Of a DNA stretch of 42,812 nucleotides, positions 3,277 to 42,513 are shown piece after piece. The stretch covers positions 1 to 42,812 of the forward strand of contig JAGVYT010000013.1 of assembly GCA_018303115.1 (NCBI GenBank), in the 5' to 3' direction. This DNA comes from Candidatus Woesearchaeota archaeon. Its GTDB lineage: Archaea; Nanobdellota; Nanobdellia; Woesearchaeales; UBA10216. Under the pieces are notes generated by a model. That model searched no databases. It saw only the letters and a list, made by a program, of their open reading frames with translations, and had not been told where the DNA came from. The translations under genes were made by a program, and so were the position numbers. How positions within the stretch are numbered: position 1 is the stretch's first letter; each line of letters starts with the position of its first letter.

Positions 3277-3309
3277 ACTTATTAAACTTTGTTTTCTGTA
3301 AAGGGCTGC

Positions 3310-4788
3310 ATGGAAATTAACAGGGTAAAGGAATCAGGAATCTTCGTCATTTTCGGGGTTACAGGAGACTTGGCAAAGCGCAAGTTAATACCTGCGCTAT
3401 ACAGGCTCAAGTCCAAAAGGTTGCTGCCTGAAAATTATTTTGTAGTAGGTGTTGGGCGGCGCGTTCTTACGGAAAGCGGTTTTGACAGGATGCTTGAGGA
3501 ATCAAGGAATAGCTTTATAGGACGTGTTAACAGAAGGGCTTGGTCTGAATTCAAAAAGCAAGTCAGCTATTACTCTATTAATTTTAAAAGTGTTAAGTCT
3601 TTCAGGAAACTGGCAAACTACATGGAAAGAACCGGCAGGGAAAGCAAATGCGGCGGCAACAGGGTTTTCTATCTGGCTATGCCCCCCGACGTGTTTGGAC
3701 CGGTAGCCAGGAATATGAAAAAAGCAGGATTGCTGAAAGGAAAGGGCTGGAAAAGGGTTGTGTTCGAGAAGCCTTTCGGGTTTGACCTGGAATCTGCCAG
3801 AGGGGTTAACAGGCAGGTGTCGTCTGTTTTTAGTGAGAGGCAGGTTTACCGCATAGACCATTATCTCGCCAAGGAGTTTGTGCAGAACATACTTTTTTTC
3901 AGGTTCGCAAACCCGATGTTTGAGCAGATATGGAATAATAATTTCATTGACAACGTGCAGATAACCATAGCAGAGCAGGATGGAATTGGCTCGAGGGGCA
4001 GGTATTACGAGAAAGCAGGCGCTGTTCGCGACATGGTTCAGAACCATGCCTTGCAGATACTGTCTTTTGTAGCAATGGAAGCCCCGAAGTCTGCAAAGTC
4101 TGCCGATACCTGTCCTGAAAAGGTGAGGGTTTTGAAGTCAATAAGGAAAGTTCTCCCAAGCGAGGTTGTTACAGGCCAGTATGGAAGCGGTAAAGTTAAT
4201 GGGAAGAACGTTGTTGCCTATAGAAAAGAGTCTGGCGTTGCCCCAGGCTCACTGACAGAGACATACGCTGCTATCAGGTTTTATGTTGACAATCCTCGGT
4301 GGGAGGGAGTTCCCTTTTATGTAAGGACGGGAAAGAGGCTTGCTAAGAGCTATGCTGAAGTCAACATTATGATAAAGGATGTTGTTTGCACTGTGTTCTG
4401 TGATGAAAGAATGGAGCACCCGAACATAATCACTGTGAGAATCCAGCCTGACGAGGGAATCTCCATTAAGTTTAATGTCAAATCCCACGAATCTGTATAC
4501 CCAATTAATCCTGTTATCATGGATTTCAGGCATAAGGCGGTTTTTGGGATGAACGCTCCTGAAGCTTATGAGACGCTTATCGCAGGGGTGATGCAGGGCG
4601 ATAAAGCGTTGTTTACAGACTGGGAGGAAACTGAGCAGAGCTGGAAGGTTATTGAGCCTGTGCTCAAGTCAATGGATAAAATGAGGAAGAAATTCCCAAA
4701 TTACAGGGCAGGCAGTTTTGGCCCGGAAGAGGCTGATAAATTGCTTGAGGGTAAAAAATGGGTGATGCCGCAGGGGGTGGGCGAATGA
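3310..4788 (+). CDS. zwf: glucose-6-phosphate 1-dehydrogenase
   Basis: [59 protein letters not shown] at 3310 is more plausible than the TTG at 3289. Confidence 0.92.
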
Positions 4789-5678
4789 AACTTGGCTTTA
4801 TCGGATTGGGCAGGATGGGGCATAATGTCGTTCTAAACCTGCTGTCAAAAAAACACGAAGTAGTTGCGTATAATCGTTCTGCTGACAAGGTTAGGAAGAT
4901 AGTGAAAAAGGGTGCGATAGGCGCATACTCGGCTGGAGAGCTTGCACGGAAACTGGCAAGGCCAAGGACGATTATAATCATGATTTCTGCGGGAAAGCCT
5001 GTTGACGCTGTTATTAGGCAGTTGCTGCCTCTGCTTTCAAAAGGTGATACGTTAGTTGAGGCAGGCAACTCTTGGTTTGAGGACTCAATCAGGCGCTATA
5101 AACTGTGCAAGGGAAAAGGCGTTAATTTCCTTGACATGGGAACTTCCGGAGGCTTGAAAGGCGCAAGATACGGCGCTTCATTAATGATAGGGGGGGACAA
5201 GCAGGCATTCAAGCGCCTTGAAAAGCTTTTCACTGACATGGCAGCAAGGGACGGCTATGCTTACGTGGGCGCTTCAGGAGCAGGGCATTTTGTGAAGATG
5301 GTTCACAACGGCATAGAGTATGCCCTTGAGGAAGCGTATGGAGAAGGGTTTGAAGTGCTGAAAAAATGCCCTTACAAGCTTGATCTCGCGAAAGTTGCGA
5401 GAGTCTGGAGCAGCGGCTCTATAATAAGGTCTTTCCTCAGCGAGCTTGCAGAGCAGGCATTCAGAAAGGACCCTGAACTAAGAAAGTTTAAGGGAGCGAT
5501 AGGCGGTGGCGAGACGGGAGCCTGGGCGTTAAAGGTTGCAAAAAAGGAAATGGTTGAGATGGAAACCCTTGCCCACGCACTAAGGGTAAGAAAGCAGTCG
5601 CTGAAAAAACAAACATTTGCCACAAAGCTTGTGTCTGCCTTAAGGGCTGAATTCGGCGGCCATAAGGAAGCCAAATAA
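4785..5678 (+). CDS. gnd: 6-phosphogluconate dehydrogenase (decarboxylating), short YqeC-type
   Basis: [69 protein letters not shown]; overlaps zwf stop (ATGA). Confidence 0.9.
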
Positions 5679-35395: not shown

Positions 35396-36691
35396 ATGAA
35401 GCGTAACAACAGGCTCGAGTTTCTGAGAAAAAGGGTTTTGAATAAGGAAATAGGCAGCAGAAAAAAGCATAGCAAACCAATAGAGCTCATAGTAAAAACA
35501 GAATTCAAAAAGCGTGACTGGCTTGCAAAAGAGCTTGGCAGGGTTGGAAAAGTAACCCGTGTTTTTAGCGCCATACCTTATCTCAGCTTTTTGTGCGACG
35601 CTGCAGACGCTTATGACCTGAATCAGGTGTTTCGAAGATTGGCTGACGACAGGGCTTACAAGTCTATTGCAGCCGCTATTTCGGTAATTGATGTTTCTAA
35701 CACGTTTAGCATCCCAAGCATCACTAAGAATGCTAACAGAGGTAAAAGCAGTGAATTGTGGAATCTTGGTGATATTGGCGCTTATGAGGCGCAGAGGATT
35801 GCTCTGGGAGAAGGGGTAAAAGTAGCAATAATAGACACTGGCGTTGATTATAACCATCCTGAAGTCAGCGGCAGCTTTGGAAGCGTCAGGGGCTATGATT
35901 TTGTCCGCAATGTTTCCGACCCTATGGATTTTAACGGGCACGGAACCCATGTTGCTGGAATAGCCCTTGGAAGGAATTACGGTATAGCCCGGGCTTCAGT
36001 AGTTTACGCTGTGAGGGTTCTTGATGAGGCTGGCATGGGAAGCGAGGCGGACACCATTGCCGGAATGGACTGGGCAGATAAACAAGATGCAGACGTGGTT
36101 AACCTAAGCTTGGGAAGCCCTTATGCCTCGGCAGCCCTGGAGGACATGTGCTATTACCTTGCAAACAAAGGCACTCTGATAGTCGCAGCTGCCGGCAATT
36201 CTGGTTTTGGGCCAAACTATCCTGCTGCTTTTGGGGAGCCGGTGATAGCGGTAGCGGCCGTGGATGAGCAAAACAGGCATGCTGGCTTCAGCAACGTTTA
36301 CGAGACAAATGACATTTCAGCCCCGGGGGTTGATATAGTATCCTCCTACAACGGGGGGTATGCCAGTCTGTCAGGCACTTCCATGGCAGCACCGCATGTT
36401 ACCGGAAGCCTTGCCCTGGTTCTTTCTGCGCTTAAAAGCAACCGTGACTTAGGGGCTCTCATGGAGGATACAGCGCAAAATCTGGAAGAGGGGAGCTTTC
36501 CTGAGAGGGATGTTTATGGTGCGGGACTGTTAAGGGTTGACTTGATGGCAAAAGCGGTTGTTGAAAACCGGATGAAAAGCCCGTTTCATAGCTATGGAAG
36601 GAAAGTGGTGAACGTCTTGAAAGGGGAAGTGGTGAACGTCTTGAAAGGGGAAGTGGTGAACGTCTTGAAAGAGGTGCTTTGGGGTGAATGA
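35396..36691 (+). CDS. subtilisin-like serine protease (S8)
   Basis: VAIIDTGVDYNHPEV (Asp), NGHGTHVAGIALG (His), SLSGTSMAAPHVTGSLAL (Ser). Confidence 0.93.
   Translation: MKRNNRLEFLRKRVLNKEIGSRKKHSKPIELIVKTEFKKRDWLAKELGRVGKVTRVFSAIPYLSFLCDAADAYDLNQVFRRLADDRAYKSIAAAISVIDVSNTFSIPSITKNANRGKSSELWNLGDIGAYEAQRIALGEGVKVAIIDTGVDYNHPEVSGSFGSVRGYDFVRNVSDPMDFNGHGTHVAGIALGRNYGIARASVVYAVRVLDEAGMGSEADTIAGMDWADKQDADVVNLSLGSPYASAALEDMCYYLANKGTLIVAAAGNSGFGPNYPAAFGEPVIAVAAVDEQNRHAGFSNVYETNDISAPGVDIVSSYNGGYASLSGTSMAAPHVTGSLALVLSALKSNRDLGALMEDTAQNLEEGSFPERDVYGAGLLRVDLMAKAVVENRMKSPFHSYGRKVVNVLKGEVVNVLKGEVVNVLKEVLWGE
36605..36676 (+). repeat. 3 tandem copies of a 24-bp unit encoding VVNVLKGE
   Basis: gtggtgaacgtcttgaaaggggaa repeated; last copy diverges at its end. 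Confidence 0.9.
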
Positions 36692-36967: not shown

Positions 36968-38197
36968 CTATAGCTTAACATTCAGTATCTTTTCAACATC
37001 ATCTTTCAGTCTTTTTTCAAAGGTTGCTGTTGTTTCCCCCTCGCCTTTCTCATTGTTTAAAGCAGCCATGAGCTTTTTTGTGAGTTCAAATTCCGATTCA
37101 GGGCTTAAGTTGTCAACTTTTATTTTTGAAAGGTGCTCCCTTATTATGGCGTCCTCAGTGTCTTCAACAGATTCTGTGCTGATTTTAACTTCCTCAAACT
37201 CGGAGCTTGTTAGTGCAGAGGTATTTTTCATGACAAAATGGGCGCTTTTGTCGTATATTGCGTCAAAAATAGGCTTAAAGCCGATTTCAGAAGGCTTGCC
37301 GATTCTTAACTTTCCGGAAAGGCGTATGGTAACAATTGTGTTGTTGAACTCCTTGTTGGCTATTTGCTCTTTTATTGCTGATTCAACTTCTGCTACGGAT
37401 TTGCGGTTGCAGTCTGCAGAAATGCTGAAAACATTATGAATCATAACCCTCTCAAACAAAACTTCTAAATCAGCAGCTTTTTTTTCAACAATGTAAAAAC
37501 CGCCGCAGCCTAGCTTTTCAATCTCACGGAAGTTGTTGGGAAACAAAGGGCCTGTATTGGCTATGGTTCCGTAACCAGGTTGCTGCTTGACATAAGGCTC
37601 ATGGACATGCCCGCCTGCATAATAGCTGAAATTTTTCGGGAAAGCTGACAGGGGGGTTGAATCCATTTTTTCCAAACCTTGTGGTTTGAACTCTGAAACA
37701 GCTGTATGGAACATGAAAATCTTGAAGCCTTCCTCTGCTTCCAGGTTTTCCTTAATCAGGCTGTCAAAATATTTTCTCTCAAGCATTCCTTTCCTTCCTA
37801 TAATGCCTGTAATTTTTGCCCCTGTTTTTTCATCGGCAGTGAAGCGCAATTGAAGTTTGTTGTCAACAACGCTCCCTTTCATCACGTTGGTCAGAAGCCC
37901 TGCATTTTCAAGGACGTCCAGAATTGTCTTTCCTGTGGGGGAAAAGTCATGGCTTCCGGCAATCGCGTAAACAGGGATTCCCCTGTCATTTGTTTCCTTG
38001 AGCTTCTTGACAACGTCCTTCAGGTTGTCTATGGAAGGGAGTGATGTGTTAAAGAAATCGCCGCTTATAAGGATGAAATCCGCATTTTTTTCAAAGCACA
38101 TATCAGCCGATTTCAGGAAGGCTTCAGTGCTTGCATTAGCCAGCCTCGGGTCTCTCCAAGAGCCTATGTGCACATCAGCAAAATGGGCGAACTTCAT
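36968..38197 (-). CDS. mre11: Mre11/SbcD-type exonuclease
   Basis: FAHFADVHIGSWRDPRL; ISGDFFNTSLP; AIAGSHDFSPTG; YYAGGHVHEPY. Confidence 0.9.
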   Translation of the reverse strand: MKFAHFADVHIGSWRDPRLANASTEAFLKSADMCFEKNADFILISGDFFNTSLPSIDNLKDVVKKLKETNDRGIPVYAIAGSHDFSPTGKTILDVLENAGLLTNVMKGSVVDNKLQLRFTADEKTGAKITGIIGRKGMLERKYFDSLIKENLEAEEGFKIFMFHTAVSEFKPQGLEKMDSTPLSAFPKNFSYYAGGHVHEPYVKQQPGYGTIANTGPLFPNNFREIEKLGCGGFYIVEKKAADLEVLFERVMIHNVFSISADCNRKSVAEVESAIKEQIANKEFNNTIVTIRLSGKLRIGKPSEIGFKPIFDAIYDKSAHFVMKNTSALTSSEFEEVKISTESVEDTEDAIIREHLSKIKVDNLSPESEFELTKKLMAALNNEKGEGETTATFEKRLKDDVEKILNVKL

Positions 38198-38250
38198 GCT
38201 GGAAAGGGGATTCCGGGCAGTATAAAATTGTTTTCAAGGCAATGCCATAA

Positions 38251-40833
38251 TCAGGCCAAGGTAGCTTTAGAATGTATCCCCCAAATGGTTGGATCATAAG
38301 ATGCAGAATCCAACGCATAAACAACATTAGCCGGGTCCTGAAAGGCTGCTTTAAACTTGTCCGGCATACCAGAGAAATCAAGTGTAATTTGAGCGCCTTC
38401 AATTCCTCTAAACTTGCCTGTAGCCCTTAAATAAGGATGATATACGCCTGTAACACCGCCTTCCTCAAGCTGCCTGATAAAATCGGGATTTGAAAGGTGA
38501 TAAATAATAACACTGCCTTTATCAAAGGGCGGCATCCCCAGATTCTTTCTTCTGACAGCTCTTTCATATACTGATGATGCAAGATATTCGTCTATTATAA
38601 GTCTCCAGTCGGAATCCCTTTGTTGGCTTGGCTGCAGTAATTCTGCCATAAGTTCGCTGTCAATAATCTTCCAAGCATACAATCGCCCTAATTCAGTCGC
38701 TTTCGACCTTTGCAAAAGGCCTTTTTCTTCCAAATATTCAACAATGGGCTCCAGTTCTGAAGAAACACAGCCTATTGAAAATTGTTTTCCTCTCACACCT
38801 TTAGCGAAGTCCATAAGTGAATTTGCAACTATTCTGTGGTCTGCCCCGGCAAGGATTGCCAGACTAAGCAAATGTTTAACAACGTCTTCAGAAACGCCAA
38901 GTTCTCTTGCTGCGCTACCATAGGAAACTGTTTCAATATAACTCTCTTCAGCAACTGCTGGCGTTTCACCAACTAAATCAGAAATTTCTTCACCACCCAA
39001 ATCAACATCAGGAGGGAATTCCTCATCCGCTATAGAAGCAGAAAAATCGTCCGGGTATATTTTACCATCCGGCTCTACCGGAGCAGCATCATCCTCACGA
39101 AGAACATCTTCCACTGTAGGCAGTGTTTTATGTTTGGCGCCTGCAGGTCTGCTACTTGGTTTAGAAGCCTTTGGTAATTTTCTCTTACCTTGCAGCATAA
39201 TTTCTAAAATGTCTTCTAAATGCTCAACAGAGTAAACAAAAAAGTTAGAGCCGGGAATCTTCTGAACATAACCCGAGCCAATAAGCTCTGGCAGCCGCCT
39301 AGAGAATCTCGCTTTATATCGTAGTATGGAGTTAAAAGCGGGATTACGCTCCGCAAGAGCCTCCTGAAACTCAGATGAAACTATAACTTTTCTGCCGTTC
39401 ATCAAATCCTCAAAACCGGATGTAGTCTTAATAGCGCCATCGTTGACTATAATCAAACTAGACTTGACCAAAGAGGAATATGCACTAGGAGGCAAACCAT
39501 ACTCAGCCATAAAAGAGGCCTTAACAGCGCCTGCTCGGAGTCTTGGAGGTGCTGGCTTGATAGCTGATTTAATAGTTGCAGGAGAAGAGTGCTGTCCTCT
39601 TGAAAGAATCCTTAAAATATCTTCCAAGTGATTGGGAGAATACAGAAAATGAGATGTGTTTCCAATTCTCATGATATGACCTGAAGCTTCAAGAGCATGG
39701 CGTCTATTTGTAAATCTAGTTCTATATGCAGAACTATTTGGGTTTAAACTTGGTTCAATTCTATGAAGAAGTTCACGAAGCTCAGCATGATTCAAAAATC
39801 TCCTCCCTTCCATTAAGCTATCAAAAGCAGGCGTTGTTCTTATTCCGGCAGATGTAACTGCTATCAACTTCGTACAAAGGAAATGTTTATAGGCTCCGGA
39901 AGGCATTCCGTATTTCTTAGTAAATTCAGCTTTAAGCTCAGTAAAGGTAAAGGCATGGCCTCTACGAAGTTGCGGAAATGTTATAGTGTCTGCAGTTATA
40001 ATATCTGCAATACTTTGAAATTTTAAAGGGTTGGAAAAATAAACATTCTGATTGCTTCCTGGAAACCCAAACTCATAAATCAGCCCTTTAGATGTCAGAA
40101 TTGTCAGTCTTTTTCTCCAATGCTGATGAAAATTTACAGATGTAAGCTTTTTACCTTTCCCATTTAGAAATGTTCTTATAGCCAAGGGATGGAGAACCTC
40201 TTTATCCCTGATTCTATTCCAAAAATCTTGGGGTAACAGCAATTCACCGTCATCCCTTGTTCGAATTACTCCCAAATTTACCAGCGTTTCTAAGGCAGCA
40301 CTACTGATTTTTTTCTCTTCTGCAAACTGCTCTCTCGGCAAAACTACCGGCTCTGCCCAGTCGAAAAGATATGCTGATAAAGTTGGAAGAGGCTGCTTCG
40401 TGGAAGGCTCTAATTTCATGATTTCCAAAAAACGGCTCCAGCTCGCATTATCAGTTCTATACAAAGAAAACCAATTTTTTGAATTTTTGCTGCCTATATG
40501 CATAAACAGTCCAGCTTCCTCAAGCAAACCTGTTTTTATGCTAAAGAAGGCATCAAAGGTGAGTCGGCCAGATTCATAACAAACTGCTGCAAATTCTGTT
40601 GGATGAAAAACAGCCCTGCCTTCAATTAACTTATCAAAAGCAGAAGAATCTGTAACTTTGCCATCTTCCCCTCTAACCAATTGATTTTCAAGAAGAATCC
40701 TATATTGACGGGTATTCAAATTGTGTTTAATAAGAAACTCCAATACAGAAAGGGGAGAGGTTCCAGCAGGAGCAGCAGCTTCTTGCAGACCGACAGGTTC
40801 CCCAACGAGAGAATCTATATTGTCAGCCGACAT
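38251..40833 (-). CDS. uncharacterised 860-aa protein with four tandem about 115-aa modules
   Basis: ATG at 40833 preferred over TTG at 40851; repeated pattern F..LM.GR....EF/L.....R......GY.....N.F.YS..HLEDIL.I; own TATA at about 40850-40860. Confidence 0.75.
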   Translation of the reverse strand: MSADNIDSLVGEPVGLQEAAAPAGTSPLSVLEFLIKHNLNTRQYRILLENQLVRGEDGKVTDSSAFDKLIEGRAVFHPTEFAAVCYESGRLTFDAFFSIKTGLLEEAGLFMHIGSKNSKNWFSLYRTDNASWSRFLEIMKLEPSTKQPLPTLSAYLFDWAEPVVLPREQFAEEKKISSAALETLVNLGVIRTRDDGELLLPQDFWNRIRDKEVLHPLAIRTFLNGKGKKLTSVNFHQHWRKRLTILTSKGLIYEFGFPGSNQNVYFSNPLKFQSIADIITADTITFPQLRRGHAFTFTELKAEFTKKYGMPSGAYKHFLCTKLIAVTSAGIRTTPAFDSLMEGRRFLNHAELRELLHRIEPSLNPNSSAYRTRFTNRRHALEASGHIMRIGNTSHFLYSPNHLEDILRILSRGQHSSPATIKSAIKPAPPRLRAGAVKASFMAEYGLPPSAYSSLVKSSLIIVNDGAIKTTSGFEDLMNGRKVIVSSEFQEALAERNPAFNSILRYKARFSRRLPELIGSGYVQKIPGSNFFVYSVEHLEDILEIMLQGKRKLPKASKPSSRPAGAKHKTLPTVEDVLREDDAAPVEPDGKIYPDDFSASIADEEFPPDVDLGGEEISDLVGETPAVAEESYIETVSYGSAARELGVSEDVVKHLLSLAILAGADHRIVANSLMDFAKGVRGKQFSIGCVSSELEPIVEYLEEKGLLQRSKATELGRLYAWKIIDSELMAELLQPSQQRDSDWRLIIDEYLASSVYERAVRRKNLGMPPFDKGSVIIYHLSNPDFIRQLEEGGVTGVYHPYLRATGKFRGIEGAQITLDFSGMPDKFKAAFQDPANVVYALDSASYDPTIWGIHSKATLA

Positions 40834-40983
40834 TATTAGCACGCTAATCAAGCCCAGTATAAAACTTTTATCTATATGTGGTCAACTTCCCAATAATCAA
40901 GTTGAGTTCAGCATCAACAACAGATGTAATCCCGAAAAGTTCCGCTATTTACCCAACTTGATATAACAACTTGGCTTTACACA

Positions 40984-42513
40984 CTAATGCAGCCCTGCAA
41001 ATTCTGTCTTGTATTCAGTCTTTGGCTGTTTCTCAAGCAAATCCTCATACAATGGAACTTTAACAGGAACAGCAAACTTAGAGAATGTGCTTGTTACTAT
41101 TGCCTCGCCTATGTCCAGGGAGGCTATTGCGCGGTCGTCCTGACTTAAGTCCTGTGAAGCTGATTCTATGACTGCTTTTCTCTCAGGGGCCGTTTCAAGT
41201 CCTAAAATTATTTTTGTGCTGATGTTTGCAAGTACCTGCCTTGGCATTAGAGAGGGAAGCTGGGTTATCGCAGTTAAACCAAGCCTGAATTTGCGGCCTT
41301 CTCTTGCGATTCTGGAAAAAATGTTCGGGCCCTGCTCAAGCGCATCCTTCCCAAGAACGCTGGGCGCTTCCTCCAGAACAACAGAGAGAACAGGCTTGTC
41401 TTTGAGCTCGCCTGTCGTTTTGTAGTTCTGGTATCTGTTAAAAAGTTCGGAAGCGACTATGCTTCCCACCAGTATTTCAACCTGGCTGCTTAAGCTGGAA
41501 GTGTCTATTATGACTGCCTTTGATTTTTCCATGTCATCTGCAATGTCGGAAACAGTTGAAATCCCTGATTGGATGTCAAAAATGCCTTTTGAGTAAATCT
41601 CACTGCCAGATATTTCCAGATTAAGAAGCTGCAGCAGCCTTCTTTTGACGACAAGTATGGTTGCCTCATGGAAAAACCCTTCCAGAATTTCATCTTCTTC
41701 AAGAAGAATTGCCGTTATCCATTTAGAGCCGTATTTGCGGTAGTAGGCGTACAGCGCTTCCTTCTGCGGCTCAGACCAGAATACAACACCGTTGAAGTGG
41801 GCAGGTTGTATCTTGCTTATGTTGATTGCGAGGGTTCTTGCTCCGGTAGGGGGAGTGTTTGGGGTGTAGTAAACAACCTTGTCTGAGCAGTCTTTTAGCC
41901 CTGCCTTGTTTCTTCCATAGTATTCATCATGCGGGTCAAGAATAAGAAAACCTGCATATTCCCCTTGTAAAGCGCTGTGGATAATGCATGACATTAAATT
42001 GGATTTCCCTCTCCCTGTTTGCGCAGCTATAAGAACGTGGTGCGAGAACATATCCTCGCCGTTAAGATAGACTTCTGCATCAGCCGCCTTGCTTCCTGTG
42101 CGGAGGTTTCCGATAAACAGGGGGTTTTCAGGCTTTTCAAGAAAGTCATTGCAGGAAGCGTCTAGTTCTTCAACGCTTGAAAAGAAATCCGGCAGGGTTT
42201 TGCACACCCTTAAAGTGCCGTGTTTTAGCAGAAGCAATGGCTTCAGAAACGCCAGAGTGTAGTTGCGAAGTTCTGCGTCCATCAGTTCCAGGTCGTTATC
42301 GCTTTCAAGCTTCATTCCGGAAATCATCTCAAGGTTTTGCTGCGAGAGCTGGGAGCCGTAAACAAGGTCAAACACCTGAAGCAGAACCTTGCCCTGGCTG
42401 GTCTGGGCAGTCAGCAGCTGGCCTATTTCGAGTTTGGCATCGGATTTCTGCCTTACAACAATGCTGTCGAAAGATCCGGAAATGACCTGCCCTGTTGTCT
42501 TCGCCACATACAA
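40984..42513 (-). CDS. herA: HerA-family DNA translocase/helicase ATPase
   Basis: [85 protein letters not shown]. Confidence 0.9.

Follow-up and report, generated by a model that had tools for sequence, protein, structure and literature searches.

An orphan protein of predicted tandem winged-helix modules in the variable herA-mre11 spacer of a Woesearchaeota genome

Here, we propose that the 860-aa protein encoded between herA and mre11 in a Woesearchaeota archaeon is a recently acquired orphan, a putative multi-winged-helix DNA-binding protein of mobile origin lodged in a permissive spacer, and not a conserved repair factor. We give this proposal about an even chance; it draws on sequence comparison and on a structural model of one of the protein's repeat modules. 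An extremely fast-evolving gene is a less likely alternative to recent acquisition. The location beside herA and mre11 more likely reflects chance than function, and a functional link of the protein to HerA or Mre11 is unsupported. For the protein itself we infer DNA binding, a mobile origin and a regulatory role.

The gene lies in a 42,812-nucleotide contig (hereafter the window) as an uninterrupted minus-strand ORF (38251-40833) that encodes 860 aa from the ATG at 40833, or 866 aa if it started at an upstream TTG. Its neighbours share its strand and orientation: herA upstream (40984-42513; DUF87/HerA central domain, E=1.1e-25) and mre11 downstream (36968-38197; Metallophos, E=1.7e-13). The coordinates, length and neighbours given in the first-pass annotation were thus reproduced, and its remark that neither rad50 nor nurA lies between or beside the two genes is true of the 42.8-kb contig. 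A search elsewhere in the host assembly (~1 Mb in 45 contigs, 96% complete, contamination 0.02%), as that annotation had suggested, located a Rad50-like gene of 686 aa on contig C40 and the NurA gene on contig C13; the 860-aa protein itself matched no Rad50 or NurA profile in Pfam and NCBIfam scans. Linkage of rad50, mre11, nurA and herA has been described for most hyperthermophilic archaea (PMC2288612), which bears out in part the earlier claim that herA and mre11 normally cluster with the other two. The present locus is like that HerA-NurA-Mre11-Rad50 end-resection cluster (PMC2288612) in that herA and mre11 flank the gene, and unlike it in that the product encoded between them is not one of those four proteins, while rad50 and nurA sit on other contigs. 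The contrast is, however, less striking within Woesearchaeota, where tblastn with the host's own Rad50 and NurA found neither in the herA/mre11 stretches of relatives, in a search that a diverged NurA could escape.

Some further features of this genome were recorded along the way. A near-perfect 60-bp tandem duplication lies directly downstream of the Rad50-like gene (L048:10600-10719, contig C40). In the window, a 24-bp tandem repeat of 2.9 perfect copies occupies the 3' end of a subtilase gene (36603-36671; VVNVLKGE repeated), and genes for glucose-6-phosphate dehydrogenase and 6-phosphogluconate dehydrogenase adjoin at 3289-5678. Genes for these dehydrogenases of the oxidative pentose phosphate pathway are uncommon in archaea.

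At the resolution of the sets searched, the 860-aa protein appears to be a species-level orphan. As a whole it gave nothing significant against Pfam, NCBIfam, PHROGs, PADLOC or the PDB, and it had no relative in the two congeners and 56 other relatives, in 352 other genomes of the order, or in 377 other genomes of a class-wide sample. Nor was it matched in GTDB contigs, where a HerA query retrieved the two congeners, in IMG/VR (whole protein and single parts) or in phage and plasmid collections; these contig scans depend on exact short peptides and detect close relatives only, whereas the genome searches have greater sensitivity over sampled genomes. Searches with module profiles in family, phylum and order samples (hundreds of genomes) yielded marginal matches only (E~1e-3), and two of these were set aside by eye as a FAD-dependent oxidoreductase and a short MarR/ArsR-like winged helix-turn-helix (wHTH) regulator. 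In another genome of the same order (G058), adjacent genes of 235 and 632 aa (L083:120-2751) apparently encode tandem HTH-like units. The 632-aa product resembles the orphan in being large and woesearchaeal with several HTH-like segments by eye (one HTH_17 above cut-off), and was rejected as a homolog (BLASTP E=0.49; hhalign probability 0.3%); its C-terminus resembles sigma-70 regions 3-4 by eye, with no Pfam call. The suggestion that the 860-aa protein is a novel repair factor finds no backing in these searches, since a homolog occurs in no other genome searched, including both congeners, in which herA and mre11 persist, and since its codon composition is atypical. The same is true of a novel defence factor: PADLOC returned no family at E<=10, and a recognisable effector domain is absent.

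What, then, usually occupies the space between herA and mre11? All 21 genomes searched contain mre11 and 14 contain a clear herA, the two being direct or near neighbours in 11 of these 14. In these 11 they share a contig and an orientation; the gap between them measures 41-129 bp in six genomes, whereas in five, the host included, it is 0.8-2.8 kb. Six other genomes (G003, G005, G008, G009, G010 and G024) have mre11 and no match to the window HerA, and G021 has mre11 and a weak HerA match only. Both congeners retain the two genes, 73-81% identical and with order and orientation unchanged. Where the slot is filled, its contents differ. By labels assigned by reading the sequences, not by profile search, G001 has an Lrp-type regulator there, G007 another together with a 126-aa ORF, G025 a HAD-like protein of 281 aa encoded on the opposite strand, and G022 a coiled-coil-like protein of 468 aa. 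This variety is seen at loci L006, L009, L012 and L014. An Lrp-type regulator also adjoins herA in G011 and G012; the host has no close Lrp counterpart (best 30% identity), and G002 and G004 have no Lrp match and a slot without a gene. Among Woesearchaeota, the region between herA and mre11 thus varies and accepts different cargo. Because it takes unrelated genes, location there is a weak argument for a repair function. The neighbourhood survey that had been recommended thus went against a conserved association, the 860-aa gene being in none of the relatives' slots, which are empty or hold unrelated genes.

The composition of the gene sets it apart from its genome. Its GC3 is 0.31, against a mean of 0.49 +/- 0.06 for the 88 genes of at least 200 aa in nine stretches of the host genome (z=-3.2), of which it is the second lowest, and among the 26 genes of the window it is lowest both in GC3 and in codon-adaptation value. 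This low GC3 therefore suggests a foreign origin as the simplest reading, although atypical GC3 alone is insufficient as proof of transfer. At the borders of the gene, no integrase, target-site duplication or other mobile signature was found. One candidate insertion footprint, a direct repeat at 38218-38235 and 40855-40872, was discarded, as each copy is itself a TATA-like box lying ~27 nt from an ATG. Elsewhere in the host genome, another gene of very low GC3 (0.32), at a contig end (L047:13382-14206, contig C13), has a product that by eye resembles a MutS C-terminal ATPase fragment.

The TATA-like box of the 860-aa gene (TTTTATA; 40857-40865, minus strand) is centred ~27 nt upstream of its ATG, so that the gene's "own promoter" is supported at the level of a motif only. 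A near-identical box precedes mre11 (~38221-38229). This second box recurs in G004 and, in variant forms, in G001 and G002, and would therefore be older than the insertion. The two boxes are compatible with separate leaderless archaeal transcripts for the 860-aa gene and mre11.

Within the protein, four related modules of ~115-135 aa can be aligned, in agreement with the four repeats of about 115 aa first described: M1 (residues ~23-146; 40396-40767), M2 (~151-282; 39988-40383), M3 (~285-420; 39574-39981) and M4 (~423-556; 39166-39567), all on the minus strand. When module pairs were aligned and each pair was scored against 500 shuffles, the similarity was greatest between M3 and M4 (z=37), followed by M1-M4 (z=11), M1-M3 (z=7.4) and M2-M4 (z=4.2); the scores of M1-M2 (z=2.9) and M2-M3 (z=1.7) were reached by 6 and 37 of the 500 shuffles, respectively. 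On this comparison, M1 (also matched by profile), M3 and M4 are secure as repeats, far beyond shuffles, while M2, the most diverged of the four, is weaker pairwise yet matches the common pattern. The modules also differ in charge: M3 (net +9) and M4 (+7) are strongly basic, M2 is slightly basic and M1 is neutral. The parts outside M1-M4 are acidic, and the whole protein is slightly so (net -4).

Structure prediction provides the best indication of what a module may be. With the four modules aligned together (these internal repeats being the only alignment supplied), AlphaFold2 returned a model of M4 with pLDDT 87.6 and pTM 0.76. Its first half runs H9-19, H24-32, E36-39, E42-45, H47-53 and its second half E56-58, H61-71, H78-95, E98-100, E107-110, H111-122, an order of helix-turn-helix and beta-hairpin wing at the level of secondary-structure topology. 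From this topology we read each module as two tandem helix-turn-helix/wing units, which would give ~8 predicted wHTH units in the protein, two of them in M1. A full-length single-sequence model was too poor for reading (pLDDT 37), its best stretch being the first unit of M2 (residues 161-210, pLDDT ~46-62). By Foldseek, the whole module had no match with E<0.001 in the PDB or BFVD (best E at least 0.12); the best partial matches by probability include wHTH or HTH proteins (SSo2273, RuvB and the CggR DNA-binding domain) with unrelated proteins mixed in, and an archaeal-virus wHTH protein at probability 0.75. The suggested profile comparison and structure prediction of a single module produced a confident model, which we read as double wHTH, and no assignment to a named wHTH family. 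A DNA-binding factor, as had been put forward, is supported at the level of fold, the modelled module reading as two wHTH units and M3 and M4 being basic; binding itself is what that fold and charge lead us to expect.

Two known families invite comparison with the half-modules. A helix-helix-strand-strand-helix order with a short wing is typical of MerR/Xis-type DNA-binding domains, and the half-modules share it with the MerR/excisionase HTH (HTH_17 PF12728; MerR PF00376). Unlike these, the protein lacks a Pfam match, for modules and half-modules as for the whole, and has eight predicted units in tandem in a single chain. Membership of the MerR/HTH_17 excisionase type was dropped, the hhalign comparison with 10 woesearchaeal HTH_17 domains not going beyond shuffles (the score of half a was reached by 9 of 60, that of half b by 3 of 60). 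The Lrp/AsnC HTH is like the orphan in its helix-turn-helix type, in occupying the herA-mre11 slot in G001 and G007, and in a weak profile signal, both half-modules beating 60 of 60 shuffles, yet with a probability of merely 1-2%. Lrp proteins, in contrast, have one HTH and a ligand-binding domain in ~150 aa, and the orphan has 860 aa without that domain. Lrp/AsnC membership was likewise rejected, given the weak HTH-level signal and the absence of an Lrp domain from the Pfam and NCBIfam scans.

Beyond M4 lies an acidic linker of 62 residues (~557-618; 38980-39165, minus strand; net charge -10) with no recognised domain. The next stretch (residues ~619-738; 38620-38979, minus strand) may be a worn fifth copy of the module: in a search with the four-module profile the true C-terminal part ranks 5th of 2001 sequences, 2000 of them shuffles, and the stretch has an HTH-like start, which is suggestive only. 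Residues ~621-651 score E=0.0076 against Sigma70_r4_2, with 16.3 bits, under the gathering cut-off of 25.7, and a sigma-factor identity was dropped on that score. The last ~122 residues (~739-860; 38254-38619, minus strand) constitute a domain that alone matched nothing in Pfam at E<=10, nor by sequence in the PDB up to E=10. ADP-ribosyltransferase and homing-endonuclease identities for the C-terminus were dropped as well, each with zero profile support (for the former, Pfam at E<=10). The distinct C-terminal domain reported earlier is retained in the sense that this part lacks significant module similarity, with residues ~619-738 as a possible degenerate module.

In light of these features, what might the role of the protein be? 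As we picture it, the gene landed in the permissive herA-mre11 spacer of one Woesearchaeota species and would be transcribed from its own TATA box. DNA binding is expected because of the wHTH fold model and the basic M3 and M4. This most basic pair probably grips the DNA duplex, M1 and M2 may lengthen the contacted stretch of DNA or make contacts with proteins, and the linker, possible fifth module and C-terminal domain may serve as tether and effector or as a partner-binding end. Most likely, the protein would be a long-site DNA binder from a mobile element, acting as an autoregulator, a transcription regulator or a replication/partition-type protein; a structural DNA binder is a further possible role.

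Other explanations bear on the same evidence. An Lrp-type regulator fills the slot in G001 and G007 and adjoins herA in G011 and G012, the host lacks a close Lrp counterpart (best 30% identity), and the fold is predicted to be wHTH-like. These features would suit a transcription factor native to the lineage and specific to it, evolving fast, that has replaced the slot's Lrp-type regulator and controls mre11 and herA, or itself. We regard this as unlikely, as the slot in G002 and G004, where no Lrp match was found, can simply be vacant, and as a native gene would be expected to have a more typical GC3. An accessory factor of HerA-Mre11 end processing, whose modules would load or position the helicase or nuclease at ends or specific sites, could be argued from the shared strand and the position between the two genes, from the predicted DNA-binding fold and from the interaction of Mre11 with HerA reported in Sulfolobus acidocaldarius (PMC2288612). 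Such a role is quite unlikely for a gene that is missing from congeners keeping herA and mre11 at 73-81% identity, that has a separate TATA-like box and atypical codon composition, and whose slot is filled by unrelated genes elsewhere.

The low GC3 of an orphan gene would also fit membership of a defence or toxin-like system, in which the array of HTH units would do the sensing and the C-terminal domain would be the effector, and the stretch IIYHLSNPDFIRQLEEGG resembles, by eye only, the start of a DarT-like ADP-ribosyltransferase. The C-terminal domain, however, has no Pfam match at E=10 and no PDB sequence match, the protein has no PADLOC match and the insert has no partner gene, so that we hold this to be very unlikely. 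Finally, as the gene is an orphan with unusual codon composition and the genome is binned, one may ask whether the metagenome-assembled contig is misassembled or contaminated. This is highly improbable: the gene lies inside a 42.8-kb contig, both flanks are 73-81% identical to those of congeners with order and orientation kept, and the bin contamination is 0.02%.

Our preferred reading is still that of a recently acquired orphan of mobile origin. It is distinctly unlikely that the protein represents a new class of repeat DNA reader, built of tandem double-winged-helix modules without known relatives and put to use at the HerA-Mre11 locus, where it would direct or regulate end processing. If DNA binding is true, ~8 winged-helix units in diverging modules would make the protein a natural repeat-built DNA reader, and would offer an example of large orphan proteins arising in tiny archaeal genomes.
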